Assembly (NCBI GenBank): GCA_031296105.1
Contig: JARLGJ010000057.1
Coordinates: forward strand, 62,001 to 126,000
Direction of reading: 5' to 3'
Source: Acidobacteriota bacterium
GTDB taxonomy: Bacteria > Acidobacteriota > Terriglobia > Terriglobales > Acidobacteriaceae
Length of the DNA: 64,000 bases
Part shown: in pieces, positions 3,920 to 22,400 of the stretch
Position numbering within the stretch: the stretch's first letter is position 1
Layout of the letters: the number at the start of each line of letters is the position of its first letter
Made by a program: the position numbers and the translations under genes
The notes under the pieces: generated by a model
What the model was told of the DNA's origin: nothing
The model's input: only the letters and a program-made list of their open reading frames with translations
Database searches by the model: none

Positions 3920-5314
3920 TCAACGAGGGGCCGTGGAAGAACTGTGTTTTGGCCACAGATGTATGGAGCATTGGCGCGAGTCAAGCGACTGGATATATGA
4001 AGCCAGGTCGGCAAGTTCCGAGGGGGAGAGTCGATACGCAGGCATGAGAGCCGAGCGCGTGACAAGGCGCGGATTACGCACATACGCGGCGATCTCCTGG
4101 GGCGTGCGTCCGCGTGCCGCCAGGTTTGACAGATCGGGTCCGACAGGACGCCCCCCCAGTCCTTTTACGGTATGGCAATAGCCACATTGGTTCGCGGCAT
4201 AGAGTTGGCGGCCTCGAAGCTCTGCTACAGCCGCTGGCCGGCTCGCGATAGTGGAAACATTGTAAGGGAGGGTATGCTGCCAGGCCGACAACGTCAGATA
4301 GACGACGGCGGCAATCGCCGTGCTGGCAACCGCAGTAGCCAGCGGACGCCCGGCGGAGCGGCGACGGCGAGCATTGTCAAGAAAAGGCACTGCAAAAAGC
4401 AACAACAAACCGATGCCCGGGACGAGTAGACTCCCCACCCATTCCCACCGGCCAGGAAAGAACGTGAGTAGCTGAAAGAGCCAGAGGAAGAACCACTCCG
4501 GCCGGGGCTCGTAGCTGCCGTCGAGTTGTTGCAAAGGCGTGGAATGAGGCGGACCGCCAAGAATAGCGATCATCAGCCAAAGGCCTAAAACAGGCACAAA
4601 TACGCAAAGCAGACGGCGCACATGCTCCGGGAAGAAGCGGTAACCAGGAGTAGCGGGCGGAGCACTTTCCGCATCACAATCACATTCGTCCAAGCCGTGA
4701 CAACGAACAAGATAGACATGAACGGCAGCAAACAGCATCAACAAGGCAGGAAGAAAAAGAATGTGAAAGACATAAAAGCGCGTAAGAGAGAGTCCACTAA
4801 CGCTGTAGCCTCCAAGAAAGCCACAGGCGATCTGCCGTCCGGCGATGGGGACCTGTGAGATCAACGCAGACGTGACAACGGCGGCGGAATAAGAGCGAGC
4901 GCTCCAGGGCAGCAGTGAGCCGGTAAACAAAAGTCCTGCCGCAACCATCAGAAGAAGAACACCAGTGATCCAAGTGAATTGGCGCGGAGCCTTATAGCTG
5001 CCGCGTATGAAATTAGTGGCGAGGTGCGTCATCATCGTCAGGAGAAAGGCTCCGGCGCCCCAATAGTGGAAGGCGCGGAGCAGGCGGCCAGCGGGAACAT
5101 CCGAGACAATGAACGAAAGCGAGGCAGCAGCTTTATCAGGAGAGGGACTGTAGTAGAGCGCAAGAGAGCAGCCCGACAGTGCCAACAATAGAAACAGAAG
5201 AACGAGGAGGCTGCCCAGTACACTTCCCCAGGGAGCCCGCGCGGCGAGACGTTGCACAAGAAACGGCCGCAAATGCTGCTGCCAGCCAATTCCATCCAGA
5301 AGTGTGCGCATCAT
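3920..5314 (-). CDS. Cytochrome b fused to cytochrome c (bc complex core subunit)
   Basis: A 464-residue membrane protein that should form the quinol-oxidising core of a bc-type complex. The cytochrome b N-terminal part carries both heme-ligand pairs: H83-x13-H97 and H184-x14-H199, the latter spacing being b6f-like. The C-terminal b part has PEWF (272-275) in place of the usual PEWY. After the last membrane helices comes a cytochrome c domain with CGYCH (377-381) and a Met ligand at about 424 (SALMPAY). A Cys-rich patch (CDCDAES) lies around 211-217. The start overlaps the upstream stop as ATGA (5311-5314), and GGAGG lies four bases upstream. It is the last gene of the cluster and the natural partner of the Rieske domain encoded just upstream. 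What the c domain reduces is unknown. Confidence 0.9.
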   Translation of the reverse strand: MMRTLLDGIGWQQHLRPFLVQRLAARAPWGSVLGSLLVLLFLLLALSGCSLALYYSPSPDKAAASLSFIVSDVPAGRLLRAFHYWGAGAFLLTMMTHLATNFIRGSYKAPRQFTWITGVLLLMVAAGLLFTGSLLPWSARSYSAAVVTSALISQVPIAGRQIACGFLGGYSVSGLSLTRFYVFHILFLPALLMLFAAVHVYLVRCHGLDECDCDAESAPPATPGYRFFPEHVRRLLCVFVPVLGLWLMIAILGGPPHSTPLQQLDGSYEPRPEWFFLWLFQLLTFFPGRWEWVGSLLVPGIGLLLLFAVPFLDNARRRRSAGRPLATAVASTAIAAVVYLTLSAWQHTLPYNVSTIASRPAAVAELRGRQLYAANQCGYCHTVKGLGGRPVGPDLSNLAARGRTPQEIAAYVRNPRLVTRSALMPAYRLSPSELADLASYIQSLDSRQCSIHLWPKHSSSTAPR

Positions 5315-6519
5315 CCTACCTCCACGAGGAGTTGGCCGTTGTCGATCTTCCAGTCAAGTTGTGGCAGCGGCGCGGGCGGCGGACCGGAGAGGACCTCTCC
5401 GGCCGGCGAGAAGGCTCCAGCGTGGCATGTACAACGGAACTGCTGAAGCAGTTCATTCCATAAGACGCGGCAGCCAGCATGGGAACAGCGGCTTGAAAAG
5501 CACGTAAGGCGCGAGCCGGAGCGAAAGACGTAAACTGGTTCGCTGACGCGCTGGGTGTAGAAACCGTTTTCTGCCTCGTAATCGAGCTGAAGCGTAAGCA
5601 TGCGCTCTTCGGCAATCGCATCGAGCGTGGCAAGCCGGATCCAGCGGCGCGAGGGCCTCTGCCGCGGCACAAGAATCGAACCCCCGAGAATCGCGCCGAT
5701 ACCCAGTGTTGCGCAAAGAACACCGGCTCCGGCGGCGGCCCCGCGAATGAATCGGCGGCGGTCCGTCGAAAGCGGCGCGGCAGAGGGCGCATCGGCGCGG
5801 GCGCGACCGCCCAGAGCCAGCAGATGCAGGCCGTGGATCGCACGGGTAGCTTCAATTCCCTTCGGGCAGGATGCGGCGCAGTTGAGCTGGGTGCGACAGC
5901 CGTAGGAGCTATCGAGCATTCGATCCATCCGCGCCTGGTGCAGCGCATCCCGCGGATCGTTCTGCAGCTCAAACGCGCGCAATAGAACGGCCGGCCCCGC
6001 GAATCCAAGCCCTGGCTGGCACTGTGTGCAACTGGAAACACAACAGCCACAGCCGATGCAGTCGGACGAAAAGTCGCCGGGATAGAGCCGTTCGCCGTAG
6101 GGCCCCGGGGAATCCGCACCGCCGGAAAGGTCGTGGGGTTGGAAGAACACTAGATTCTCCGAGAACTTCTCGAAGAAAGATGACATATCAACCGCAAGAT
6201 CCTGAACGAGAGGAAAGTTGTTAAGCGGCGCCAGCGTAATCAGCGACGGTTTGCGCAGATGCGCAATCGTAGTTTTGCAGGCCAGGGCCTCCCGTCCATT
6301 GACCAGCAGGGCGCAAGAGCCGCAATATTCGGCGCGGCAGGCATGACGAAAAGCGAGACAGGGATCGAATTCCTGCTGAATGCGAAGCAGGAGATCGAGG
6401 ATCGTCGTGGTTGAAGGTGAGGGAACCGCGAGACGAAAACTGTCGTAGTGCGACGACTGACGGTCAGTCCCGCGAAACACGCGAACCGTGACGAGTGGTG
6501 GGTTGGAGGATCTACTCAC
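5311..6519 (-). CDS. SdhB/FrdB iron-sulfur protein fused to a Rieske protein
   Basis: A 402-residue fusion. Residues 1-240 are an SQR/QFR iron-sulfur subunit with a complete ligand set: [2Fe-2S] C61, C66, C69, C81; [4Fe-4S] C154, C157, C160, C218; [3Fe-4S] C164, C208, C214. Their spacing matches E. coli SdhB (C149/152/155/159/206/212/216). Then come a linker, a twin-arginine-like motif (DRRRFIRG, 253-260), a hydrophobic helix (about 262-285), and a Rieske domain with CSHAGC (345-350) and CTCHAGAF (from 363). The start is a GTG that overlaps the stop of the upstream anchor gene as GTGA (6516-6519), with GGAGAAG upstream. The reading frame stays open further upstream, but that sequence has no homology and overlaps the anchor gene. 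I infer a cytosolic SdhB part and a periplasmic Rieske part, tying an SQR-like complex to the bc module. Confidence 0.93.
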   Translation of the reverse strand: MSRSSNPPLVTVRVFRGTDRQSSHYDSFRLAVPSPSTTTILDLLLRIQQEFDPCLAFRHACRAEYCGSCALLVNGREALACKTTIAHLRKPSLITLAPLNNFPLVQDLAVDMSSFFEKFSENLVFFQPHDLSGGADSPGPYGERLYPGDFSSDCIGCGCCVSSCTQCQPGLGFAGPAVLLRAFELQNDPRDALHQARMDRMLDSSYGCRTQLNCAASCPKGIEATRAIHGLHLLALGGRARADAPSAAPLSTDRRRFIRGAAAGAGVLCATLGIGAILGGSILVPRQRPSRRWIRLATLDAIAEERMLTLQLDYEAENGFYTQRVSEPVYVFRSGSRLTCFSSRCSHAGCRVLWNELLQQFRCTCHAGAFSPAGEVLSGPPPAPLPQLDWKIDNGQLLVEVG

Positions 6520-6905
6520 GAAGCTTCTCCGCCGATGTGCGGCACCATGCCGGCCAACGAGGGATACGGGAAACAGCGATAAATGGAAAGCCATGCAGCA
6601 AGAATGACGGCAACGGCGAGGACCAGCAAAATCCAGGTCACCCATCGATGGGAAGCCAGATCGACGATCCGGAAATCCAGCAGGATGACGCGCACGCCGA
6701 GAGCGGCATGAAAAGTCACAACAAGCAGCAACAGAAACTGCAACAGCGGCTGCCAGGTGAATAGGAGGTGCGCGACGATAAGAATAACAGCGAGCAGGGC
6801 GGATATACGCTGCGCCACCCACGCCCACATACCCGCGCGGCCTGGGCCGGGGAATTGTGAGGCAGAAGCAGAGACGGTGGTCGGGCTAGAGCTGTTTTCT
6901 TCCAT
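6516..6905 (-). CDS. SdhC/D-like heme-b membrane anchor
   Basis: A 129-residue membrane protein with three predicted helices (about 29-50, 55-77, 88-108). It resembles single-subunit cytochrome b anchors of succinate:quinone oxidoreductases (AQRISALLAVILIVAHLL, TFHAALGVRVILLDF). H46 and H66 are candidate heme ligands. The ATG at 6905 was chosen because AAGGAG lies nine bases upstream. It starts inside the flavoprotein gene (20-bp overlap), and its stop overlaps the next start. Its role would be to anchor the flavoprotein/FeS pair and pass electrons to or from quinone. A second anchor subunit is not encoded nearby. Confidence 0.85.
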   Translation of the reverse strand: MEENSSSPTTVSASASQFPGPGRAGMWAWVAQRISALLAVILIVAHLLFTWQPLLQFLLLLVVTFHAALGVRVILLDFRIVDLASHRWVTWILLVLAVAVILAAWLSIYRCFPYPSLAGMVPHIGGEAS

Positions 6906-8787
6906 GAGACCGGGCTCCTTGAGGATGGCTTGCATCCCGCGGCGTGATGTCACCATTGAAATCGTTACTCGGAGCAGGATCCGAAACATGGTCGCGATGC
7001 CGCGCGCTATCGGCTTCCAGCGGGGCCGTTGTGCTTTCGGTGATGCCCTCGTGAGCGCGCTTCTTCCCTTTCTTGCGGTGTTCCCTGAACTCGGCCACGG
7101 ATAAGTAGGGGAACTCAACGGGGCGGCTTTCCATTTCGAAGCGGCCATTTTCGGTGTGACGCAAGAAGCTGTTAAACATTCCATACTCGTCGCGCTGTTC
7201 TTCAAAATCAAGGCGGCCATGAGCGCCGCGGCTCTCCTGACGGCGCGCGGCGGAGGCAATAACCAGCCGCGAGATGGCAATCATATTCCGAAGGTCGAGG
7301 GCGGCGGCAAAAGCGGAGTTAGAGGCCAGGTGACCACCGACCGAGACATGAGCGCTTTCGCCCTCTATGGCATCAACGGCGGTGATTGCCTGATCGAGCT
7401 TGGCGCGTTCCCGCACGGGGCCGACGTTCAGCCAGTTGATTTTCTGTAACTCGGAACACAGATGAAATGACGAAAGTCTGGAGGATGTGTGGAATGGCTG
7501 GCCGAGACGCAGCACCATATCTTCGATTTCCTTCGCCGGAGACTCCTCAACCGCGGAGCGCAGCGTAAGGCTGGCGGCAATGGCTTTTCCGGCAAGGCGG
7601 CCAAATACGCACGCAGCAGCTAGCCCGTTGCCGCCATGGCGGTTTGCACCATGGATGCCGCCGGCATCTTCGCCGACGACGAACAGACGCGCGAGCGAAC
7701 CGCGACCCTCCTCTGAAACCTGCGCCCCGCCCATGAAAAGCTGCGCCGCTGGTATCAGTGGGATCCGGCAGCGGGCGGGATCGTAGCCAAACTGCCGGAA
7801 GCGCTGCGCCATTAAGGGATACTCGCGCGAAATAAACTCCTCTCCCAGGTGGGATGCGTCCATTTCAATGCCACCTGAGGCGCAAGCGCGGCCACTGACG
7901 ATTTCAATATAGGAGCGGCGGCATAGAAGATCGCGGCTGGAACCCTCGCCGGAGCCGGGGGACTTGTGAAGCAGCGGCTCGCCGAGACCGTTGTAGAGAT
8001 GAGCGCCACTGGTGCGCAGTCCCTTCTCAAAGACCCCGCCGGTCGCGCTGCTTCCTGGCACCAGCAGGCAGGCGGGGTGGAACTGTATCATCTCCATGTC
8101 CCGCAGCCAGGCACCAGCCCGGAAGAGCATCGCCAAGCCGTCGGCGGTCTTGTCCGCACCAGATGCGTGGAACTGGTATTGCGCGGGGCCGCCACCGGTG
8201 GCTACCACGGTGGCGCCTGAGGTGACCGCCCGCCACTCGCCACGGCGCTGATCGAAAAGAAGAGCCCCGGTGACGCCCGAACCATCCGAGTTAAGCAGAA
8301 GATCGACGGCGCGGCACTCCTCCCACACGGGAATGCGGCGCTTCAGAATTTGCTCGGCAAAACATGTGATCACATGCAGCCCGGTCGTGCTCCCGTGGAA
8401 GACACGATGGTCGTTGGAGCCATCTTCCATCTCGCGCATCATACGCCGGCCCTGACCATCGCGGTCGAAATAGCAACCGAAGCGATTTTCCATCTCAAGG
8501 ACGGTGGCGGGAGCACACTCGACAAGACGCCTGACGAGACGTTGATCGTTGATGCATTGGCCGGTCTTTATGGTGTCCCGGAAGTGGCGCTCACAGGCAT
8601 CCGCGCCTCCGAAAGCGACGTTGAGACCGCCGCTCACCATCCGGCTGCTGCCGCCTTTGCCGCGCAGGGCGCGGGTGACGATCAGAATCCGCAGCGATGG
8701 GTCCGCGTCCAGGGCGGAGAGTGCGCACATTGCGGCTCCCGCTCCCATTCCCAGGATGAGAAGATCGACTTGGCTGCGATGGATCAT
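6886..8787 (-). CDS. SdhA/FrdA/NadB-family flavoprotein with altered active site
   Basis: A 633-residue flavoprotein of the succinate dehydrogenase/fumarate reductase/L-aspartate oxidase family. The FAD-binding GMGAGAA motif is at 13-19, and the GGVFEKGLRTSGAH, QFHPA and HGANRHGGNGLA motifs are present. Two family hallmarks are missing. The region where SdhA carries its FAD-linking His reads GGSSRMVSGG (45-54) with no His, so FAD should be non-covalent as in NadB. The substrate-loop His of (H)YTMGG is Gln (AQLFMGG, Q349). The C-terminal tail is long and charged. It starts as ATGA with the ECF S gene. The anchor and SdhB fusion downstream make a membrane-bound, quinone-linked enzyme likely. 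The substrate is unknown and is probably not plain succinate or fumarate. Confidence 0.88.
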   Translation of the reverse strand: MIHRSQVDLLILGMGAGAAMCALSALDADPSLRILIVTRALRGKGGSSRMVSGGLNVAFGGADACERHFRDTIKTGQCINDQRLVRRLVECAPATVLEMENRFGCYFDRDGQGRRMMREMEDGSNDHRVFHGSTTGLHVITCFAEQILKRRIPVWEECRAVDLLLNSDGSGVTGALLFDQRRGEWRAVTSGATVVATGGGPAQYQFHASGADKTADGLAMLFRAGAWLRDMEMIQFHPACLLVPGSSATGGVFEKGLRTSGAHLYNGLGEPLLHKSPGSGEGSSRDLLCRRSYIEIVSGRACASGGIEMDASHLGEEFISREYPLMAQRFRQFGYDPARCRIPLIPAAQLFMGGAQVSEEGRGSLARLFVVGEDAGGIHGANRHGGNGLAAACVFGRLAGKAIAASLTLRSAVEESPAKEIEDMVLRLGQPFHTSSRLSSFHLCSELQKINWLNVGPVRERAKLDQAITAVDAIEGESAHVSVGGHLASNSAFAAALDLRNMIAISRLVIASAARRQESRGAHGRLDFEEQRDEYGMFNSFLRHTENGRFEMESRPVEFPYLSVAEFREHRKKGKKRAHEGITESTTAPLEADSARHRDHVSDPAPSNDFNGDITPRDASHPQGARSHGRKQL

Positions 8788-9395
8788 GGTTGGACGGATG
8801 TCCGATCCTCTGGGGAGTCAGCGGCCACCTCCGGCGAGGGAACGTCCGGCATAATTGTTCCAGACGCTTGCATGCGGCGAGCGACTGGAGTTGCGAACGC
8901 TCCACCCAATGCGCCAAAAATCATGGCCCCTCCGGCGCGCAACAGAGAGTGCGTAACCGCCAGAGAAAAATCGAGACCAAGCAACCGATCCTGCACGATG
9001 CTGACCAGAACCCAGGACACGCCCATGAAAGCTCCGGTGATCGCGCTGAGAGCTACCGAGCGGGTCAGCCTGGGCAGCAGACGGAAGACAATATCGGCGA
9101 TGAGTCCAGCGATGACAAAGCTGAGCAGTTGCATGGGGCCCGCGTGGCCCATGCCGAACAACAACGACATAAGCCCGGCAAGAAAGCCCGTGAGAGTGGC
9201 CACCCAGCAGGCCCGGATACAGGCGCGCGCCAGCAGCAAAAAGAACACGAGCGGAAGAAGACGGTGGCCAGGCAAATGCATGGGAATGCGCAGGAACTGT
9301 TGCGCCAGGATTATGCCAACGGCGGAAAATCCGGTGACTAGCGCTTCACGCAGCGTAAAGCCGAGCCAGTATTTGGTATTCGTTTGACCGGTCAT
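8784..9395 (-). CDS. ECF transporter S (substrate-binding) subunit
   Basis: A 203-residue protein with about five to six hydrophobic helices. After a short polar N-terminus (MTGQTNTKYWLGFTLREALV) comes a helix-rich body including RIPMHLPGHRLLPLVFFLLL and an Ala/Gly-rich last helix. Size, topology and position directly after the ECF ATPase and T genes identify it as the S component, which sets substrate specificity. I cannot match it to a known vitamin family. The ATG at 9395 overlaps the T-gene stop as ATGA, with AAAGG about eight bases upstream; upstream in-frame sequence is a shadow of the T gene. Its stop overlaps the flavoprotein start, which implies that the imported compound and the flavoprotein are linked. 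Confidence 0.75.
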   Translation of the reverse strand: MTGQTNTKYWLGFTLREALVTGFSAVGIILAQQFLRIPMHLPGHRLLPLVFFLLLARACIRACWVATLTGFLAGLMSLLFGMGHAGPMQLLSFVIAGLIADIVFRLLPRLTRSVALSAITGAFMGVSWVLVSIVQDRLLGLDFSLAVTHSLLRAGGAMIFGALGGAFATPVARRMQASGTIMPDVPSPEVAADSPEDRTSVQP

Positions 9396-10090
9396 GGGTG
9401 AACCTTTCTGCAGATGAGTTGGGACCGAAGCGTCGGCTGCGCTGGGGTATCTTCGCCAATTCCCCGCTGGCGGGCAGCCACCGACACCTCGTCGGCAAGA
9501 TGAAGAGCGCGCATGAAAATCGGGATTGCCAGACAGCGGCACCACTCTGCCCAACAGAGGGGATTGATGAGCTGACGCGGAGCTACACGGGCGCCACGTA
9601 GCTGCTGAAGCCAATATATTTCGCGAGCTTCGCGGGTGATGAGCGGCACAAAATGCAGGCTCATCGTAATAACAAAGGCGAGCCGCGACGGTAGAAAGCG
9701 TCCGAAGACAGCCAGAATATCGCTGACGCGCGTCGTGCGCTGTAGCCAAAGGCCGGGCAAACATAGCAGCCCCAGCCGAATCGAGACAAGCAGGGCGGCG
9801 GGAAGGGCGGCCATCCCCTGGCGCAAAAGAAGGACTGCCACTACCAGCGGGGCTTGATAAAGCACAACCCTGGCGTCTTGCAACATTTGACGCCATCCCA
9901 GGCGGGCCAGCGCATACAGCAGGAACCAGATGAGTACGAGAATCAACGCGGCAGTAAGCCGTGAGTTGATAAGATCGGCCAGCGCGAGCAGCCCAACCAT
10001 GCACAACTTAACCGCAGCCGGAAGTCGTTGGATGGGAGTCGAGCGCGCCATGTATTGACCGGGAAAACCGCGCCGGCTGTCTCTAGGCAT
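9392..10090 (-). CDS. ecfT: ECF transporter T (energy-coupling membrane) subunit
   Basis: A 232-residue membrane protein of the EcfT/CbiQ family. Helices in the first half are followed by the two cytoplasmic coupling-helix motifs, seen here as LQQLRGARVAPRQ and VAARQRGIGE (the X-A/R-R-G type that contacts the ATPases). The ATG at 10090 has GGGAGG eight bases upstream and overlaps the ATPase stop by eight bases. The T subunit transmits ATP hydrolysis to the S subunit encoded immediately downstream. Confidence 0.87.
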   Translation of the reverse strand: MPRDSRRGFPGQYMARSTPIQRLPAAVKLCMVGLLALADLINSRLTAALILVLIWFLLYALARLGWRQMLQDARVVLYQAPLVVAVLLLRQGMAALPAALLVSIRLGLLCLPGLWLQRTTRVSDILAVFGRFLPSRLAFVITMSLHFVPLITREAREIYWLQQLRGARVAPRQLINPLCWAEWCRCLAIPIFMRALHLADEVSVAARQRGIGEDTPAQPTLRSQLICRKVHP

Positions 10091-11414
10091 CAAGCAGCCT
10101 CCCATGGGAGAGAATGAACCGCCGCCGGCCCCAGGCTGCGGGCAGGGGGCCGTGAGAAACAAGCAGGATGGCCATGTTGTCAGCGCAAGCATAGTACTCA
10201 AGAACGCGGAGAACATGACGGGCTAGTTCGTCGTCGAGACCGGTGAGTGGCTCGTCAAGCAAAAGAACCTCGGGGCCGGCCGCAAGTAGAGTAGCCAGTG
10301 CGACCAGATGACGCTCACCGTGGCTGAGGCAAAGCGGCGAACTTTCCGCCAACGGACCCAGGCCGCAGAACGCGAGAGCCTCCTGTGTCCGGCGGGACGC
10401 AGCAGGATTGCGGCTGCGGCGTCCCGAGAAACCCACTTCGCGCGCGACAGTCTCTTCGAACAGCAGCATGTCGGAGGCCTGAGGCAGCAGAAGAACTTTG
10501 CGCGCTAGCGGCGCCGGTGAGGTGACACTGGTGCCGCGGAAGCGAACCTCGCCGAGTTGGGGCCGTTGGCCGGCAGCAAGCAAGCGCAGCAACGTTGATT
10601 TTCCAGCAGCGTTTTCTCCGAGAATGTGGACCTGGTCGCCGGGATATAGCGCAAAATCCAACTGCGCCAGCACCGGCGCCGAGCAAGCATCCTGGCAACA
10701 GATGCCAGATGTGGTTAGCAGCGGCTCGCCAAACGCCATCGCCGGCGGAGGCGCAGGAGCAGGCGGCAGTGGCGGCAGCGAAAGACGAGTACGAGACGCC
10801 GGGGGAAGAGAGATCTGTATATCCCAGAGAGGATCGCCTGGAGCGGCCTGGTGCTGGGAGACAATCACGGCACACCCTTGGGATTTGAGATGAGCGATGC
10901 AATGGCGAAGCTCTGTCTGCCCGGCCAGGTCAAGCTGGGAGAAGGGCTCATCAAGCAAAAGGAGCGAAGGCTTCATGGCCAGCAGCGCGGCCAGCAGGAC
11001 GCGATGCTTCTGCCCCATAGAGAGCATCTCCAGGTTGCGGTGACGCAAGGGGAGCAGCGAGTGCAGCTTTAGCTGCTCCTCAATACGAGACGACATTTCT
11101 TCGCCGGAAAGATGCAGGGTGTGCAGGCCGAGGGCAATCTCCTCCTCGACGGTGGTGCACAGGAGCTGAGTCTCGGGATTCTGCATGGCGAGACGGGGAT
11201 TCTCGGGAAGCTTGCGCGCCTGCCAACTGCTCTTGCTATTCTCCGCCGAGCACCTGGCGAGGGCGCGGAGAAAGGTTGACTTACCGCTGCCAGAGGGACC
11301 GCAGATAAGAGCAGCCTGACCGGGGTATAGATCCAAGGAGAGAGACAAGTCAATGCGGCCACCGTTGGCGTAGCAGTGCTGCAGGCGCTCCACGGAAAGC
11401 AGAGGCTCGGTCAC
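10083..11414 (-). CDS. ECF transporter ATPase, two ABC domains fused
   Basis: A 443-residue cytoplasmic protein with two ABC ATPase domains in tandem, equivalent to EcfA and EcfA' in one chain. Domain 1 has Walker A GPSGSGKST, signature LSMGQ and Walker B LLLLDEP. Domain 2 (after a Pro/Ala-rich linker at about 205-225) has Walker A GENAAGKST, signature LSHGE and Walker B VLLLDEP followed by LVSHG. Both sites look competent, though the signatures deviate from LSGGQ. The start is GTG, overlapping the previous stop as GTGA (11411-11414). It powers the T and S subunits encoded next. Confidence 0.9.
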   Translation of the reverse strand: MTEPLLSVERLQHCYANGGRIDLSLSLDLYPGQAALICGPSGSGKSTFLRALARCSAENSKSSWQARKLPENPRLAMQNPETQLLCTTVEEEIALGLHTLHLSGEEMSSRIEEQLKLHSLLPLRHRNLEMLSMGQKHRVLLAALLAMKPSLLLLDEPFSQLDLAGQTELRHCIAHLKSQGCAVIVSQHQAAPGDPLWDIQISLPPASRTRLSLPPLPPAPAPPPAMAFGEPLLTTSGICCQDACSAPVLAQLDFALYPGDQVHILGENAAGKSTLLRLLAAGQRPQLGEVRFRGTSVTSPAPLARKVLLLPQASDMLLFEETVAREVGFSGRRSRNPAASRRTQEALAFCGLGPLAESSPLCLSHGERHLVALATLLAAGPEVLLLDEPLTGLDDELARHVLRVLEYYACADNMAILLVSHGPLPAAWGRRRFILSHGRLLDA

Positions 11415-12133
11415 TGTTGATTCCTCCGCTTCTTACTTTGGAAGGTCTTACGGCTGGCGACCTCCCAGCGATCGCCGGTGATGCGGCGCAGCGGCACCAC
11501 GGGCGACTGTCCCAGTAGAAGCGGGCGCAGATATTCGTGCGCGTCGATCCAATCTTGCGGGGCCGGAACTTCAGCGTCGTTCTCTAGAGACACGGGAATA
11601 ATGCCGGCTCCAAGCAGCTCAGATACCTGAATTCCTTCGTCGAAGGGCCGCAGGCGTCCGTACTCCATCCAGCGCCCAGACCAACCGGCCGCAGTCAAGC
11701 CAACGGCGGCAGCCGCACCAACCAGCCCGCGACCGCCACGCCATATCTGGAATGGCAGGTCGCCCATAGCGGCAAGCGCGTCCTTGGTCTCAACTTCTTG
11801 CCAACTGGCAACTCTGCCGAAGTCTATCAGCGAGGCCGGAACATCGGCGGCGACAACCAGGCCGGGTGAGCTTTCGGCTTCCGCCAACTGCTCGATATGA
11901 GCGGCGGCAAGAGAAACAAGGACAGGAAGGACTTCCCTGCCCTGCGCCTCGAGAACAATGCAGGAAGCTTTGTTGTTCGTTGTACCGCGGATTCCGCGGT
12001 ACAGATGATGGCCCACCGAACCGGCAAACACAACTCCAGCGGGCAACAGCGGCTCAAACATGCGGGCCAGCCGGGCCGTGCTAAGTTTGCCGCCGCCGAT
12101 GTCGGTATCGTCAATGCCAATCAGAATACGCAT
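11411..12133 (-). CDS. TiaS-like GIDDTD protein, copy 2
   Basis: A 240-residue cytoplasmic protein. The N-terminus MRILIGIDDTDIGGGKLSTA matches the opening of the archaeal TiaS family (tRNA-Ile2 agmatinylcytidine synthetase), in which the DDTD aspartates belong to an ATP/Mg-binding kinase-like domain. A second conserved segment, GLVGAAAAVGL, lies near residue 137. The RNA-binding and zinc parts of archaeal TiaS are absent, so tRNA modification is unlikely. It is paralogous to the gene directly upstream (same motifs, same C-terminal LL/GI-IPVS region). The stop overlaps the ECF ATPase start. I infer ATP-dependent activation or conjugation of the imported compound; no direct evidence supports that. 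Confidence 0.7.
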   Translation of the reverse strand: MRILIGIDDTDIGGGKLSTARLARMFEPLLPAGVVFAGSVGHHLYRGIRGTTNNKASCIVLEAQGREVLPVLVSLAAAHIEQLAEAESSPGLVVAADVPASLIDFGRVASWQEVETKDALAAMGDLPFQIWRGGRGLVGAAAAVGLTAAGWSGRWMEYGRLRPFDEGIQVSELLGAGIIPVSLENDAEVPAPQDWIDAHEYLRPLLLGQSPVVPLRRITGDRWEVASRKTFQSKKRRNQQ

Positions 12134-12134
12134 G

Positions 12135-12866
12135 CTACTCGGCTATCGCGGCGTCGCGCGGCGGTTTACCCTGCGCCAGCCATCGACCTTCTTCGAAGTT
12201 GATCGGCAGAACAGGCCGGCCTCCCCAGAGGCGGGGGCTGATCCAGCCGTTGGTTGTGATCAGTGCATCAGGAGCGGGCACCGAGGCATCACGATCCATG
12301 GAGACGGGCAGAATGCCGCGAGCAATCAACTGCTCGACACGCACCGGATCTGGCAGATCGCGCAGCCGATTGAACTCGAGAAAGCGCCCTGACCAACCGA
12401 ACACGCTCAGCCCGACAGCCGCAGTGGCGCCAATAATTCCGTCGTTCGTACCACCATGGCCGGAGAGATGAACGCCAGCAGCCGAGGTGACGGCGACAGC
12501 GTGCTCCTGAGTCTCAATGGCGTGTGTACAGGCGAGACCGAATTCAATCAAGCCAGTGAAATCGGCATCCTCGCGGGCCACACACAAGCCGGGATCGCTG
12601 CCAGGACTGGCCAGTTCCGCAATATGCTCAATGGCAAGGTCAATCAGTACAGGAACCAGGCTGGCATCGGCAACTTCAACAACCGCACAGGCCGGGCTAT
12701 TGTGGGACGTGTATGGAATGCGCTCATCCATCAGGAGCTGGTGACGCAGCACCCCCCATAGCGGAACACCGGAAGGAAGCTTCTTCTCAAACATGCGAAC
12801 CAGCCGGCCGGTGCCGATCGGAGCCCCAAGTACGTCGGTATCGTCGAACCCTAGGTAAATTTTCAT
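12135..12866 (-). CDS. TiaS-like GFDDTD protein, copy 1
   Basis: A 243-residue protein starting MKIYLGFDDTDVLGAPIGTG, with a later GIIGATAAVGLSVFGWSGRF segment that its neighbour also has (AAAAVGLTAAGWSGRW). Both copies end with a region containing RGILPVS/AGIIPVS and V.APD. It is a full-length paralogue of the next gene, separated from it by a single base, so the two probably act as a heterodimer or on successive steps. It lies 33 bp after the TonB receptor gene; the ribosome site is weak. The family match is to the N-terminal part of TiaS only. The function in bacteria is unknown to me. Confidence 0.7.
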   Translation of the reverse strand: MKIYLGFDDTDVLGAPIGTGRLVRMFEKKLPSGVPLWGVLRHQLLMDERIPYTSHNSPACAVVEVADASLVPVLIDLAIEHIAELASPGSDPGLCVAREDADFTGLIEFGLACTHAIETQEHAVAVTSAAGVHLSGHGGTNDGIIGATAAVGLSVFGWSGRFLEFNRLRDLPDPVRVEQLIARGILPVSMDRDASVPAPDALITTNGWISPRLWGGRPVLPINFEEGRWLAQGKPPRDAAIAE

Positions 12867-12899: not shown

Positions 12900-15443
12900 T
12901 CAGAAGCGATACTCGCTCGCAACATACAAGCTGCGTCCAGGTTCCGGATATCCTTCCTGGTAGTAATACAGATGATCGAAGAGGTTCTTGACGCCGAAGC
13001 GCAGCGAGGCGTGCCGGAAGAATGGAACCTTGGCAGACAGGTCGACGACGAACCATGAGGGCGCCACCGCAGGAGTAACTGAGCTGCCGTCAAGCTGGTA
13101 ACGAACTCCGCTTACAAAACGGCCGGTGGCGGACATATTAAACCTGTGCGGAAAGCGCACCACTGCGGTAGCCACGAGCTTGTGCTTGGGTGTTCCCGTA
13201 AGGTAGGCAACCGGAACCGTGCCCGTCTGGGCGTAGATCGATGTGGTGGTAACCCCGCCCTGCGAAGTTCTGTTTAGAAAACCGTAGTTGAAGTCAAAAA
13301 CAAAGTGAGACAGCGAAGTGCTGCGCACCGTGAACTCAACTCCCTGCCGGGTTTCCTGCCCGACATTGACAAATACTTTACAGGCCGCCGGGGTCGAACA
13401 CAGCGAAGCATAAACAGTGTCAGTTACATTCACAACTGCATTCTCGATTGCATTGCGAATATCGCTTCGGAACAGATCGATTTGCGCTACCGTGCCAGCG
13501 CCCATAGCACGGCTGTAACCCGCCGTCCAGTTTGTTGCATTTTCGGGGCCGAGATCAGGGTTCGGAAGCGCCTGACCGAGGCGGCCCGAATAACGCTCCT
13601 TGAGCATGGAGTAGCGGCTCTTACTGGAAACCGCCCCGTATACCGAGCTGTTTTCGCTGAGTGCATAAGAGACTGCAGCAGACGGATCGAACTTCCAGAA
13701 GTATGCAGTGCAGTCTGCGTAAGTCGCGCCTTGCGGAAATAGCTGACAGGAGAAGGGCACGACAGTATTCTTGCTGAGATTGAAGTTCTGCGCTTGCAGA
13801 CCATGCAGGTGGCTGATGCTGATGCCACCCGTGACTTGCAGTTTCTTAGACAACGTAACGACATCCTGCATTCCCAGAGCCCATAGTTGATCGCGATCCG
13901 TTCGCCACGGTTGGACATATGAAGTGGAACTGCTACCGCCGCCACCCCCGCCACCCCCGCTATTTGGCCAGATAGGAATCGCGGTTTTCAGGCCCTCTGC
14001 ATCGCCTTGCAGATTTACCAGGCTCGAGTTGCCCGTCACGCCACCTTCCCGGTGAGTGTCATCTTTGAAGTGCAGTGAAATACCAATCTGGTTGTGGCGA
14101 ACTTTCTCAGTGGACAAAACCGCTGACCCGCCATAGGTGTGATCGTCGTATCGAACGATTCCTGTGTTTCCGCTACTGGTCATGCTGGAGTAAGTCTCAT
14201 CATTGTACTCATTCGTCTGCGTTGGATAGTAGTCGAAGTAAGAGCGTAATTTAAGGTACGTCTTCCCGCTGATTTGTAAATTAGCCAGCAAATAGTAGCT
14301 AGTCTTGTCCCATAACGGCCAGGTCCAGTACTTAGCGCTATCGCAGCGTGCTGCTACGCTGTCGCTCTGCCCAGATGCACACACCGCCTGAACTCCGGCA
14401 TATGGCGGAACACCATAATTTGCTTTCTGCGTTATGTAGCTGAAGACATATTCCGAGTTCGCGTTTGGCGTCCAACCAACTCGCCCGCTATACCTCTCGT
14501 CGCGGCTGTAGGAGCGCTCGCGCCGATGCGTCGGTTGATAGGTGTTGACCTTAAAGGCCCCGGGTAGCGGCGTGCTGTCCTCCTGGGTCCAGTCAAGCTC
14601 TCCAAACAGAAAGTAGTGTTCGGCGCGCGCCCCTATGTATGCCCCCGAATCCAGTCCGTCGCCCGTGTGCGTGCCAATATGGCTCTCAACCTCGAAACGG
14701 TTCGTTGGTTGGCGGGTCACCAGATTCACCGCGCCACCCATAACATTAGGACCAAGCAGGGCGGACGTGTAACCCTTGGCAACCTGAACCTCTGCAATGT
14801 TACCGGTAACAAAGCGCTTGTAGTCTGTCTGCCCATCATACGGCATGTAAATCGGAATTCCGTCGATGTACAAAGGAACTTGCCGGGTATCAAAGCCGCG
14901 CAAGTAGATTCCTACCTGGTTGCGCGACGAGTAGTGTTGCAGGGAAATGCCGGGAAGGCTATCTGCGGCCTGCCCCAACTCAGTCGCATGACGTTCTTCG
15001 AGCTCGGACTGGGTAATAGTGTCGGCAACGGGAGAAAGCGGCGACACCGCAGAGACAACTGAGACCTGCTCCTCTCCAAGGTGGAATGGGTGGTCGGGAT
15101 CGCGTTCGGATATCTGCTGGATCAGATTCCGCAGAGAGTCAACATAGTCATCAAGTTGCTTGGAATCGAGTGTAACTGATGGCTCCGGAGGCAGCCCTTG
15201 CAGGAACTCAGGATGGATGCGCATCCAGCCAGTAATATCAGTGCGAATACCTTGCAAAAGGCTGCTTTGCTCAGCCTGCGTCTGCGATGACAGGCTCTGC
15301 AAGGCCGCGAGATCTTGCGACCAGGTAGCGGATCTCTCCTGCGCCCGCGCCATCGACACAAAACTGGCCAGGCTCATGCCTACGCAGAGCAACAATTTCA
15401 GGATTCCGAAATAATTACGATGACATTCACTGAGTTGTCTCAT
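12900..15443 (-). CDS. TonB-dependent outer-membrane receptor
   Basis: An 847-residue receptor. The signal peptide ends near residue 35 (SMARAQ). A helical N-terminal extension (about 36-125) of unknown type precedes the plug domain (about 135-260: DSLPGISLQHYSSRNQVGIYLRGFD, YIDGIPIYMPYDG, GGAVNLVTRQP). The rest is the 22-stranded barrel ending in YVASEYRF with a C-terminal aromatic residue. A poly-Gly/Ser run near 498-510 lies in a predicted surface loop. Unlike the receptor at 23821 it lacks a carboxypeptidase-regulatory domain, so it looks like a small-molecule (siderophore/cobalamin-type) receptor. It sits between the hydrolase-fold gene and the DDTD/ECF genes, and so is the likely outer-membrane entry for the ECF substrate. 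Confidence 0.88.
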   Translation of the reverse strand: MRQLSECHRNYFGILKLLLCVGMSLASFVSMARAQERSATWSQDLAALQSLSSQTQAEQSSLLQGIRTDITGWMRIHPEFLQGLPPEPSVTLDSKQLDDYVDSLRNLIQQISERDPDHPFHLGEEQVSVVSAVSPLSPVADTITQSELEERHATELGQAADSLPGISLQHYSSRNQVGIYLRGFDTRQVPLYIDGIPIYMPYDGQTDYKRFVTGNIAEVQVAKGYTSALLGPNVMGGAVNLVTRQPTNRFEVESHIGTHTGDGLDSGAYIGARAEHYFLFGELDWTQEDSTPLPGAFKVNTYQPTHRRERSYSRDERYSGRVGWTPNANSEYVFSYITQKANYGVPPYAGVQAVCASGQSDSVAARCDSAKYWTWPLWDKTSYYLLANLQISGKTYLKLRSYFDYYPTQTNEYNDETYSSMTSSGNTGIVRYDDHTYGGSAVLSTEKVRHNQIGISLHFKDDTHREGGVTGNSSLVNLQGDAEGLKTAIPIWPNSGGGGGGGGSSSTSYVQPWRTDRDQLWALGMQDVVTLSKKLQVTGGISISHLHGLQAQNFNLSKNTVVPFSCQLFPQGATYADCTAYFWKFDPSAAVSYALSENSSVYGAVSSKSRYSMLKERYSGRLGQALPNPDLGPENATNWTAGYSRAMGAGTVAQIDLFRSDIRNAIENAVVNVTDTVYASLCSTPAACKVFVNVGQETRQGVEFTVRSTSLSHFVFDFNYGFLNRTSQGGVTTTSIYAQTGTVPVAYLTGTPKHKLVATAVVRFPHRFNMSATGRFVSGVRYQLDGSSVTPAVAPSWFVVDLSAKVPFFRHASLRFGVKNLFDHLYYYQEGYPEPGRSLYVASEYRF

Positions 15444-16491: not shown

Positions 16492-19400
16492 TTACTGAAT
16501 CGTGATCGTCACTTTGATCACATGAGTTGTATTGCTCGTGTCAGTCGCCGTAACTGTCAATGTCTGGGTTCCCGCTTCGCTGTTGACGCTCGACGAAGAT
16601 CCGCCACTTCCTCCGCAGGAGGCAAGCCCCGCTACAACTATTGCAACTACGCCAAGCAGCAGAATTGCACCCTTCTTTCTATGGCGAGTGGCTCCTCCCA
16701 CGGCGAACAAGATTCCCAGCACACCCACCGTTAATGGCCAGTATCTCTTCGGCAGCCGTTCGCCGGCTCCGTGAGAGCTTGCACTGCTGCTGGATTTGAG
16801 CACCGTTATACTCAGTGTGTTCAGGTTTGGTGTATTCGTCGGCGAAATGCTGATGGTCGGGCTGCTCAGCGCACACGTTATGTAAGACGGCAGAGTTCCA
16901 CAACTTAGGGTGATGACGCCTGAATACCCGTTAAGTGAACTCGTGGTCAGCGTGACCGAGCGGGTCTGTCCTACCGCCATCGTGATCGAGCTGGAGGACG
17001 CGCTAACCGAAAAGTCGGGAGTGCCGGTTATGTTCAGCGTCCCGCTGACGAAGCTGAACGTGTAGTTCCCGTTTGCAGCAGACAGGGTTCCGCTGGTGCC
17101 CGTGGAAGATACGACGAAGCTGAGCGGATAGCTGGTTCCCCCCATTGAGGTGGACGTGGCCGTCGTCGTCAACTGCGGCTGGCCGGTAAGCGCGGAACTC
17201 TGTGTATCGCTATTTACAAATCCAGTGACGCTGTACAGACTGGCTACCTCATTGACCAATACCGAAGTATCGAACGGGTAAGCGTAAGAAGTGGTATTCG
17301 CCGTGACCGTCAGCACGGCGGCAGAAACGACCAAACTCTGACTAACCGAGGCAGCGGCTACATAGGTGCCGTCGCCAGCCTGGACTGCGGTCACTGTTAC
17401 CGTGCCTGCTCCAGTTATCGTAAGCACCTGCCCGGATACAGAGGCAGGTCCAGTCACCGTGTAGCTCACCTGCAACCCGGAGGAGGAAGTTCCATTCAGT
17501 GTAATTGGCCCGCTGCCGTAGACCGCATTGTTCTGGAGTGTGAACGCGATCGTCTGCGGCAGATTTCCAGTCACCTTCAGGGTTCCACTCACAAACGGGG
17601 AGAAGGTAATGTTTGAGGGTGCGAGCAGTGTGCCCTGGGAAACATTGATTGTACTGACGTATGGATCAGCCGTTGCCGACAGCGAGAGTGCAGGCGTGCC
17701 GGTGAGATAAGTGGTCATCGATGCAAAAGCCGCAGGGTCCGCGCCATTGGCGCCAGCCAGCAGATTAGCCAGATCGACATTTGGCAGCCATTCGCTAGTC
17801 CCGTCCCACTGGAAGCCGGCAATGCTTGCCGTGAGGGTAGGCGTTGCGGCCCCATACTCCTGCGTCTGGTCGTCAGCGGTCACGCTCACCGTAACAGTTG
17901 CCGCGCCTTTTACCGCACGCACCACGCCGTTGCTGTAGTCCGCAATATAGAGATTCCCCTGGCCATCAAAGGCGAGGGATTGTGGCGAGCTCAGGGTCGC
18001 TGCTGTTGCTTCACCGCCATCTCCGGAATAGCCGCTTTGTCCCTCTTTTCCCACAACCGATTCGATGATTCCAGGAACGCTTCCCCCGGTTACCATGCGC
18101 ACAGCATTCTCTTGTCCATCGGCAATGAAGAGGTTGCCCGAGGCGTCAAGCTTGATATCTCTGGGCGTATTCAGATAAGACGAACTCGCGGATGCGCCAT
18201 CGCCACATGCATTATTAGAGCACTTGGCATTCGCTGTGCCTGCGACTGTATATAGCTGGCCCACAACCGGCGCCGCTCCAGCCAATACAGCTTGCAGTAC
18301 AGGAGGAACCGGGCTGCCTCCGCCGTAGAGTACGGTGACAACAGATTTCTGATAATCGGAGATAAACAGGTTGCCGACTGAGTCAACGAAGATACCGGAC
18401 GGTGCTCCCATAGTGGAGCCTGTGGTGACGGTATAGATGTAACCTTGCACCGGAGAGGAAATACCGAATGCAGAAGACAGAGACTTTCCGCCGTAGATGA
18501 CCCGAACCACTGAGTTACCTGTATCAGCGATAAAGACGTTTCCGGAAGCGTCCACAAAGACACCCTCCGGCGCATTCAGCGTGGCGCTGCCTGACGCCGC
18601 TCCATCGCCCAAGTAACCTGCGGTGCCTGTTCCCGCTACAACGGAGATTGCGCCGCTGGTGCTCACCTCGTAAACGGCATTGAGGCTCCTGTCCGCAATG
18701 TAGAGGTTGCCTGAGCCATCCAATGCCAGCGAGCGCGGAGATTTCAGCTTGGCATCGATGGCCTGTCCTTGACTGCCACAGGCGCTGACCTGCTGCACCG
18801 TGCAGGCCGAGCTGCCGGCGACCACATAGATATAGCCAATTTGCGGAGTAACTCCGGAGAGTGCGGCGCTCAGAACTCCTGGCACGGTATATCCGGCGTA
18901 TACGACCTGAACAACCGGTGGGTCCGAGACATAGACATTCCCTGCGCTGTCAACTGCGACTGCGCTTGGGGAAGCCAACGCAGTGGTAGCCGCGGCCACT
19001 CCATTACTTCCTGTTTGCGACCCGTACTTGCCTGCAAGTGTCTCGATAAGTGTGCCCGCTCCAAGAGGCATGATGACGTAGGACGCGCTTGCCTGACTGC
19101 TTTGACTGTAGTTGTTGGCAATCGCAATTGCGTTAATGGTCATGCTGGAGCTTACCGTGATGGACCCGGTGTATTGCGTGGAACTAGCCGCGCTCGGGAC
19201 AGTGCCATCTGTCGTGTAGTAGATTGCGGCACCACTCGTGGCGTCCGTGATGGTCACGGTTTGTGCCGCGATATAGCTCCCGCCCGCGGGACTGAACGTG
19301 GGCGTAGCCGCCGGAGTTACGATGACATATGCCGCGCTCGCCAGCGCGCTTTGGTTGTACCCGCTGGCGGTAGCGACCGCATTGATGGTCGTGGTCGCGT

Positions 19401-22400
19401 TGACCGTGATCGGTCCCGTATAAAGCGCTGCGGTTGCCGGATCCGGTGTGCTGCCGTCCAGCGTGTAGAAGATCGATGAGCCACTTGTTGCATCTGAGAT
19501 AGTGACGTTCTGCGATGTGGTATAGGTTCCGCCAACCGGACTGAAGGTTGGAGTCGCCGCCGCTTGCTGCTGGTTTATGACGTAAACAGCGCTCGCGGAG
19601 GCCGTCGTATAGCCGCTCAACACTGCGATCACATTGATGGTCGTGGTCGCGTTAACCGTGATCGGTCCCGTATAGAGTGTGGCGGCCGCCGGAGTTGGTG
19701 TGCTGCCGTCAAGCGTGTAGTACAGGGAAGCGCCTCCCGTCGCGTCCGTCAGGGTGACGGTCTGCGATGTCTGATAAACTCCCGCTGCGGGAGTAAAGGC
19801 CGGCTGCGCGGCCTGTAGCGTATAGGTTGCGCTGGCCACCGCACTCTGGCTATAGTTGCTGGCCGTCGCTAGCGCCTGTATGGTCATACTGCGACTCACC
19901 GCGATGGGCCCAGAATAGAGCGTAGAACTCGTACTCGGCGTGCTGCCATCTGTGGTGTAGTAAATGGATGCCCCGCTCACTGTATCTGCCAGCGTCACGC
20001 TCTGGGCCGCGCCATATGTTCCACCCGACGGACTGAAAGTCGGACTCGGCCCGCTGCTGGCAATTGTGTAGATTGCGCTCGCTACGCTGCTCCGGCTGTA
20101 GTTGTTTGCGATGGCCACCGCATTCACGGTCGTCGTCGCGCTTATCGGGAACGCGGCCGTATATAGAGAGGAGATTCCGGGATTTGGAGTGCTGCCGTCT
20201 AATGTGTAGTAGATCGAAGCCCCAGTGGTTGCGTCCGTAATGGTTACACTCTGCCCCGTGCTGTAGGTGCCTGCTGCTGGACTGAACTGGGGAGTCGCGG
20301 CCGGCAGTGTGATGGTGAACGTGCCCATTTCCAAACTGCTCTCGACGAATCCCGGCGCAATGGCGACCGCCTGAATCGTGGTGGTCGTGCCGATCGATAT
20401 CGGCTGACTGTACACGCTGGAAGCTGAAGTCGGAACCGTGCCATCCAGTGTGTAGTAAATCACCGCGCCCGGAGTAGTGGACGACAGACTTACCTGCTGA
20501 GCCGAAGTGTAGGCTCCCCTCGCCGGCGAAAAGGCCGGAGTGGCCGTAACCAGCGAGTACGCGGCGCTGGCCACGCTGCTGCCTGTATATCCGGAAGCTA
20601 TGGCAATAGCGCTTAAGGTCTCCGAAGTAGCGATAGAAATTGGCCCGCTGAAGAGAGTAGACGCACTGGTCGGCCAGCTCCCATCCAATGTGTAGTAGAT
20701 TTTCGCGCCCGTGGTTGTATCTGAGATCGTTACGCTCTGCACCGAGTTGTATGTGCCCGCCGCCAGAGACAAGACCGGAGTATCCGCCTGGGTACCACTG
20801 ATGGTATAGCTTGCGGTAACGGTGTTGCTCTTGTTGATGCCGTTATTGGTTCCGGTTCCACTGCCACCGGTCGCATACGCGGTCAGCGCTGTGGTGGAAT
20901 CAACCGTGATTGGTCCGGAGTAGAGCGTTGGCGTCAGGTCTCCGGTACGCGTGTAGTAGATGTACACGTTGGCGGTCGTATCCGTAATCGACACCTGCTG
21001 CGTACCGGTGTAGGTTCCGGCTGCGGGCGAAAAGACCGGGTCGGCGGCCTGAATAGTGTACTGGGCCTTGGCAACCACGCTGGTGGAATACCCGTCTGCG
21101 GTGGCGATCGCGTTGAGCGTGGTGGCGGCGCTGATTGTAATTGCACTGTCATACACCGTTGAAGAGGTGGTTGGCGTGCTGCCGTCCGTGGTGTAGTAAA
21201 TGGTGGCGCCGCTGGCCGTATCGGAGATCGTGATCGAGAGCGTATCGGTGAACGTTGTACCCGATGCCGGCGAGAAGACTGGCGTCGGCGCCAGCGGATT
21301 GCCGATTTCATACGTGGCGCTGGCTACCGCGCTGACCACATAACCCGGTGCAATCGCAACCGCGTTAATCGTCTCCGTGGTGCTGACGGTAATAGAGCCT
21401 GTGTAGAGAGTGGATGAGGTCGTCGGTGTGCTGCCGTCCGTGGTGTAGTGAATCGAAGCGTTCGTCGTCGTATCCGACAAAGTCACGGTCTGGGCGACAA
21501 GGTAGCGTGCCGAGGCCAGAGAAAATGTGGGCGACGCTGCCGCAACCTGTCCGGAAACACGAATGAGTCCGCCAATGTCATTACCGGATTCAGAGGTCGT
21601 TCCATCGCTGCCGCCCAACGCGAGGTGGGGCAGAGTGTAGCTGCTGCACTGCACCGCAGCCAGTTGCGGACCGTTGTTTGCCGTCACCGAAACTGTAGGA
21701 TTGTAAGGCGCCACGTAGTGCTCGCGGTACACGCTGAGGCCGGGTTCGTCGTTGATTCCGTCCTGCGTCGCGGCGCATTGCGGATCGAAGGGAACGATGT
21801 CGGGAAGTGTGGTATCCGCAATGCTCTCCACCATGTTCATCAGGGTGGTCACCTTGGAGTAGCCGCTGGATGTTGAGTCTGTCACCATGCGGTAGATGGT
21901 CCAGAGCGGGTAAGTACCGTTGCGCAGATTGGGGTAGGAGGTATATTTTCCATCCGCGCTGGGAGCCTTGCAAGTTACCGTGTTAGCCGTTCCCGCCATG
22001 TTGCACGTTGGCAGTTGTCCGCTATAGGAGTTGTACAGCGGATCGACATCATGCACGGTGCCATCGCTGTCAACCCAGCGGATTGAGAGGTAACCGTATT
22101 CCGGCAAGTTCGACGCATTGGCATTCGGCGAGGTAGCCACCGTGTACGACGTGTTATTCGGGTCCACCGAGCCAAATAGTTCATAGCTGAACAGAACGTA
22201 ACCGATCTCATCTTGAACAGGCAGGACGGCCTGGCCAAGTTCCTGATTTAGGATCGTGCCGGTGGAACTGGTATTCGTCAAGGCCGCGATGGTGTCGGCC
22301 ATGCCGACTACGCGGCTGCGGTTGGCATAGCCGGCAGTCTCGGCGGTCGAGGTGGCTTTGTCCAACACGCTGACGCACCACTTATTCAGGGGATTGTTGC

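Follow-up and report, generated by a model that had tools for sequence, protein, structure and literature searches.

The DDTD gene pair and its locus

The stretch analysed here, referred to as the window, comprises 64,000 nt of an Acidobacteriota genome (Acidobacteriaceae; assembly GCA_031296105.1, contig JARLGJ010000057.1, positions 62,001 to 126,000). Its minus strand carries two adjacent genes for short proteins, A and B, each with a DDTD motif close to its N-terminus. The pair sits between the gene for a TonB-dependent receptor (upstream) and an energy-coupling factor (ECF) importer (downstream), the transporter set being complete with two ATPase domains, a T subunit and an S subunit:

12900-15443, minus strand: TonB-dependent receptor, 847 aa, upstream of A
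12135-12866, minus strand: DDTD protein A, 243 aa, opening MKIYLGFDDTD; canonical family member
11411-12133, minus strand: DDTD protein B, 240 aa, opening MRILIGIDDTD; divergent paralogue
10083-11414, minus strand: ECF double ATPase, a single chain with two ABC domains (ABC_tran in two stretches)
9392-10090, minus strand: ECF T subunit, CbiQ type (PF02361, 32.5 bits against the Pfam cut-off of 25, scored over an open reading frame (ORF) that reaches 10216; the start at 10090 is a judgement)
8784-9395, minus strand: ECF S subunit, 203 aa, with a PGH motif; of a family shared with S genes beside other DDTD genes

The stop of A and the start of B are 1 base apart, and the start of the ATPase gene overlaps the stop of B by 4 bases. 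An initial annotation had described tandem DDTD paralogues with a later GATAAVGL-type motif, lying between a receptor and an ECF importer. Both ORFs are indeed found where it placed them, between these neighbours; their products share 41% identity over 232 aa (E 2e-49), and the later motif reads GATAAVGL in A and GAAAAVGL in B.

The best overall explanation, and one that is somewhat favoured here, is that A and B are members of a family in which TiaS-type kinase-like domains stand alone and serve the acquisition of molybdenum and tungsten (Mo/W). The link of the family to Mo/W is put forward with high confidence, while phosphoryl transfer as the mechanism is proposed tentatively; both of these gradings are estimates. 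The initial annotation had left the imported compound unnamed, and the view that it is most likely molybdenum or tungsten is added by the present analysis.

Relationship to TiaS

Neither protein matches any Pfam family at E values up to 1, and their NCBIfam matches are all sub-threshold, including those to TiaS (E 3.7e-8 for B, 6.9e-4 for A) and to methanogenesis marker 11 (TIGR03280), so that no different, characterised family came to light. A profile built from 29 relatives retrieved TiaS chains in the Protein Data Bank (PDB) with E 5e-14. AlphaFold models of A and B (mean pLDDT 91.7 and 90.4) superimpose on TiaS with Z 21.4 and a root-mean-square deviation (rmsd) of 2.0 over 149 residues for A (structure-search E 7.8e-10), and with Z 20.3 and rmsd 2.1 over 146 residues for B; after the TiaS entries, the next structural matches fall below Z 8. 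By these comparisons, the pair carries the N-terminal kinase-like domain (TCKD fold) of archaeal TiaS, without the rest of that enzyme.

The features in common with TiaS (tRNA-Ile2 agmatidine synthetase; PDB 3amt, 4rvz and 5xob) are the fold (Z 20-21, rmsd 2.0-2.1), the DDTD motif, the threonine at position 18 or 19, an IPY.T..N segment and a G(L/I)IGALAAVG segment; the pair thus has both the TCKD fold and the DDTD and Thr residues of TiaS. In contrast, TiaS is about 420 aa long and the DDTD proteins about 240 aa, without the tRNA-binding remainder, and the DDTD family alone has the Q43, SHNSSAC and GSDPGLC motifs as well as a genomic link to Mo/W transport. Against the full-length TiaS model (NF040849), B and A score 32.4 and 18.3 bits, far from the cut-off of 600, and their matches end at positions 162 and 155 of 422. 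The profile alignment ends at position 153, and the C-terminal tRNA-binding domains and zinc ribbon of TiaS are missing from these proteins of 240 and 243 aa. A likeness to TiaS that lacks the tRNA-binding parts, as seen by the initial annotation, is therefore confirmed. That annotation also argued for a role on the imported compound rather than on tRNA, an interpretation that is supported in part: its tie to transport stands, TiaS membership fails, and the pair may act on the compound itself. A tRNA-modifying role like that of TiaS would draw on the common kinase-like domain, but it was rejected as highly improbable given the failed membership and gene neighbourhoods that concern transport and Mo/W, not RNA processing.

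Protein A contains DDTD (residues 8-11), T19, R41-H42-Q43, PYTSHNSPAC (51-60), GSDPGLC (89-95) and a GG...GIIGATAAVGL segment. D8, D9, T10, D11, R41, Q43, T53, N56, G93, G143, G146 and G160 do not vary across the 58 A-type sequences, and 56 of these have T19. T19 aligns with Thr18 of TiaS and R41 with an Arg of TiaS, while the Mo/W-linked DDTD family alone has Q43 and the segments SHNSSAC and GSDPGLC. Protein B retains DDTD, T19, the equivalents of T53 and N56, and the glycines; it has lost the equivalents of R41, Q43, P51, Y52 and D91, and carries Lys in place of S57. By the defining motifs of the Mo/W-linked family (R41, Q43, T53, N56 and G93, together with DDTD), A is a member and B is without R41 and Q43. 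The three B-type genes group in a single clade with full support, and each of them directly follows an A-type gene. In Syntrophomonas, the middle one of three DDTD copies is degenerate (D11, T19 and T53 lost) and lies between two normal ones. A degenerate partner has thus arisen twice beside canonical copies, which suggests that A and B may form a hetero-oligomer. Of the two options named in the initial annotation, a heterodimer or two successive steps, the heterodimer thus has indirect support.

Two other proteins resemble the pair. The 252-aa protein of Pyrococcus furiosus (PDB 3u02, titled TiaS) is likewise short and free-standing (profile E 2.3e-13, Z 18.1), but has the TiaS-type motifs CTTY and KTRGNGA and lacks SHNSSAC and GSDPGLC; carrying these TiaS-type motifs, it is not supported as a member of the Mo/W family. 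Methanogenesis marker 11 shows weak similarity to B (E 4.1e-5, positions 134-283 of 292), but the pair scores 22.9 and 11.5 bits against it, below the cut-off of 255.8.

Gene neighbourhoods of the DDTD family

Neighbours were counted within 6 kb of the DDTD gene at 56 loci from other genomes, in four sets of 29, 5, 19 and 3. The 19 loci, an independent group called here the second set, come from the phylum of genome G432 and were gathered after the hypothesis had been fixed on the first 29; they derive from 25 matching genomes, from which three that the first set had already covered (G432, G507 and G709) and three more (G526, G700 and G734) were left out. One locus found later, with DDTD, EcfS and TonB genes (G954/L152), stands outside the 56. 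The controls, a convenience sample rather than a random draw, were 32 stretches (28 from the phylum of G432 and 4 acidobacterial), composed of 13 from one group of 20 and 19 from another, whose twentieth member, L125, is a DDTD locus.

A partner gene for EcfS, Tup, FecCD or the molybdenum storage protein MoSto was present at 52 of the 56 loci, and a Mo/W-specific marker at 29. Counting scored transporters alone, 46 of 56 loci had one (26/29, 3/5, 14/19 and 3/3) against none of the 32 controls; neighbourhoods random with respect to transport genes, an outcome that the initial annotation had named as refuting its view, were thus not observed. The second set gave 18/19 for the four partners against 0/32 in controls (p 7e-13), 10/19 against 2/32 for Mo/W-specific markers (p 3e-4) and 8/19 against 0/32 for MoSto alone. 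All loci, together with the controls, entered the iteration of the EcfS model; when seeded from the first set alone, it found EcfS in 5 of 20 second-set loci. Representative neighbours were identified with NCBIfam, several of them below curated cut-offs, as TupB, TupA, a ModE repressor domain, aldehyde ferredoxin oxidoreductase, MoeA, MoaA and a PBP domain of molybdopterin-biosynthesis (MoeA) type, and neighbouring MoSto was identified by a PDB match to MosB (E 6.6e-67). ModE directly adjoins DDTD and EcfS genes in Bacteroidetes. At a locus of Syntrophomonas sp. (L032), a molybdenum/tungsten cofactor (Moco/Tuco) riboswitch (RF01055; 3818-3935, plus strand, 70 bits, E 1.5e-14) is followed by FecCD, an ATPase, three DDTD genes and then XdhC. 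TupABC, ModABC, FecCD-type and ECF importers, MoSto and ModE are thus the genomic partners of the DDTD family, and in the open-licence literature, as far as its available text goes, no description was found of a TiaS-like protein with any of them.

A tree of 62 sequences (quick search, with support from the approximate likelihood ratio test SH-aLRT) requires at least 12 changes of transporter label (ECF, Tup or FecCD), with the DDTD protein retained. Window protein A groups with alphaproteobacterial copies at full support, and this clade is nested in a larger one that also holds Tup- and MoSto-linked copies. The nearest relatives of the pair, in Methylosinus and Rhodoblastus, adjoin FecCD-type permeases, whereas the window pair adjoins an ECF importer. 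That the transporter is swapped while the DDTD protein and the Mo/W context remain constant argues for work on the cargo, and the constant across the family is read as that cargo, most likely molybdate, tungstate or a complex of these.

If the DDTD protein were instead an ATP- and oxyanion-sensing gate of importers, comparable to PII/GlnK on AmtB and not an enzyme, with B as a second sensing subunit, its place beside transporters of three unrelated types would be accounted for, degenerate paralogues would suit a regulatory oligomer, and the many PII proteins found after TiaS among the weak structural matches of A (E around 1e-2) would have a meaning. The PII likeness is far weaker than that to TiaS, however, and could stem simply from a ferredoxin-like arrangement that both share; a single gate suiting ECF, Tup and FecCD machines is hard to envisage, and several loci had MoSto with no transporter scored nearby. 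Such a gate is considered unlikely.

TonB genes, found nearby at 17 of 56 loci, bear on another alternative, in which a Mo/W-chelator complex is imported and the pair phosphorylates the organic chelator, freeing the metal. Metallophore uptake typically uses TonB receptors and FecCD-type permeases, and Methylosinus, Rhodoblastus and Beijerinckia are N2-fixing bacteria, both of which count in its favour. The same DDTD family occurs, however, at loci with Tup-type neighbours, carriers of bare oxyanions, and the neighbourhoods showed no evident genes for chelator biosynthesis, although no search was aimed at them. We regard phosphorylation of a chelator as quite unlikely, and direct work on the oxyanion or its carrier remains the preferred reading.

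The S subunits form one divergent PGH-motif family, weakly matched by Pfam, that occurs beside DDTD genes in several phyla. The window S subunit is below the Pfam cut-off, yet it is homologous to the S genes of other loci with the arrangement TonB-EcfAA-T-S and belongs to the family of S genes beside ModE. The window receptor shares about 36% identity over 832 aa with that of a DDTD and EcfS locus from another acidobacterial family (L041).

Several further features were seen around these genes. Upstream of the window receptor and of a hydrolase-like gene, directly adjoining, is an ORF of 2414 aa with many repeated segments (16492-23736, minus strand). A protein of about 72 aa (L022, 10739-10957), matched by neither Pfam nor NCBIfam, is repeatedly encoded next to MoSto and DDTD genes, and its model matches within 6 kb of DDTD at 19 of 56 loci. 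Methyltransferase-like proteins lie near DDTD genes in Rhodoblastus (L020, 10753-11946) and an acidobacterium (L041, 13389-14231), with 27% identity over 179 aa. A cobalamin riboswitch (L026, 3559-3774, minus strand) lies several kb from a Bacteroidetes DDTD-EcfS-TonB cluster.

Distribution, probable cargo and proposed function

DDTD genes are rare and scattered. They were found in 8 of 396 genomes from the phylum of the window genome (one of which, G133/L045, was dropped as too weak, with E 2.4e-4 over 74 residues), 25 of 297 from the phylum of G432 and 2 of 297 from the order of Methylosinus (centre genome included in both), and 1 of 395 from the phylum of G434, this being the centre itself. 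Scanning genome contigs yielded 29 loci, which belong among others to Desulfobacterota, Bacteroidetes, Alphaproteobacteria, Syntrophomonas and a Chloroflexi species. Three plasmid records matched, two of them haloarchaeal. A 3.8 kb Pimelobacter plasmid record (L143) has two adjoining genes (736-1323 and 1441-2178), one DDTD and one EcfS-like, and may be an assembly artefact because it is so small. Apparent DDTD fusions in L005/L042 and L007/L043 (ORFs of 424 and 504 aa) overlap a separate EcfS frame and were for that reason taken to be ORFs extended too far.

On another contig, the window genome encodes paired MoSto alpha and beta subunits, 44% and 35% identical to the query, next to a regulator gene with HTH and TOBE domains. 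It also has 12 molybdopterin-oxidoreductase matches, the highest number among 25 genomes (itself and 24 relatives). In the phylum sample, DDTD and MoSto each occurred in 7 of 396 genomes, 3 of them shared (p 1.2e-4), at thresholds (E below 1e-20 for DDTD, below 1e-40 for MoSto) picked after seeing the lists.

A number of observations weigh against a role in Mo/W acquisition. The first concern the window and its genome. None of the ten neighbouring genes scanned with Pfam and NCBIfam within 6 kb is Mo/W-specific, and the window has no match to a Moco riboswitch or other Rfam RNA. The S subunit is followed by Frd-like genes (3920-8787), on the same strand and with overlapping ends, that do not obviously fit Mo/W uptake:

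6886-8787, minus strand: FrdA-like flavoprotein, downstream of the S subunit
from 6516, minus strand: SdhC-like protein, downstream of and co-oriented with the ECF genes
from 5311, minus strand: FrdB-Rieske fusion, downstream of and co-oriented with the ECF genes
3920-5314, minus strand: cytochrome b-c, last of the Frd-like group

The FrdB-Rieske fusion has a full-length match in the window genome only, among 31 genomes, the relatives matching in part. A ModB gene elsewhere in the genome scores above its cut-off (222 bits), between genes read as ModA-like (before) and an ATPase (after), so that the ECF system is not the sole candidate molybdenum importer, and the idea of a genome without another one was discarded. 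Most Mo/W-using bacteria lack a DDTD gene: of 41 genomes, that of the window plus 40 relatives, the one with the gene is the window genome. The remaining points concern the family. Four of the 56 loci are without a scored partner (L025, where a BtuF-like binding protein adjoins; L036, a short contig; L044, whose neighbour reads as a TonB-like receptor; and L085). A Mo/W marker lies within 6 kb in just 10 of 26 ECF loci and 2 of 9 FecCD loci (3 counting the riboswitch locus), and an Rfam search of 43 of the 56 loci found no Moco/Tuco riboswitch other than the one described.

On such grounds, the window pair could serve another cargo, with the Mo/W link confined to other branches of the family: its operon has no Mo/W gene, a separate ModB exists, and the redox genes are co-oriented and overlapping. 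The placement of A inside a Tup- and MoSto-linked clade, the S subunit family shared with ModE-adjoining genes and the MoSto encoded in the genome all speak against this, and a different cargo is judged improbable.

Given the homology, fold, motifs, neighbourhoods, single riboswitch and MoSto in the same genome, we infer the cargo in the window genome, the use of ATP, the reaction, the hand-over and the A-B complex as follows. The TonB receptor and ECF importer would bring in a cargo that is most likely molybdate or tungstate, free or in a complex. On the cytosolic side, close to the membrane, A would bind Mg-ATP through DDTD and Thr19 and apply a TiaS-like phosphoryl chemistry to the incoming oxyanion or its carrier; the oxyanion would thereby be trapped and passed to storage (MoSto) or to cofactor synthesis. 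B, a partner with the nucleotide-binding residues and without the family-specific ones, probably serves a hetero-oligomer as its regulatory or structural subunit. On the current view, the known routes of Mo/W uptake are complete once the oxyanion is free in the cytosol. The available text of one study states that MoSto loading needs ATP hydrolysis, while release is ATP-independent and pH-dependent (PMC6448029); ATP-dependent loading makes a further ATP-using partner plausible. The fullest form of the proposal combines three parts: a TiaS-type kinase domain catalysing a previously unknown ATP-dependent activation or trapping of molybdate or tungstate right after import, an unrecognised PGH-motif family of ECF S subunits working with TonB receptors for Mo/W, and one ancestor shared with the archaeal tRNA kinase domain. 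In this combination it is a possibility that we hold with some doubt.

No link of a TiaS-like protein or of an ECF importer to Mo/W was found in open-licence papers, which, being the sole literature searched, give weak evidence of novelty. If the proposal is true, it would supply the step so far missing after import and before storage or cofactor insertion, carried out by a conserved protein with an ATP site that stays with the cargo. It would also give a function to a bacterial family without a Pfam entry, lead one to expect ECF-type import of Mo/W, and show how metal handling makes use of a domain that is known from a tRNA kinase. The family can be tested in culturable bacteria, such as Methylosinus and Rhodoblastus.

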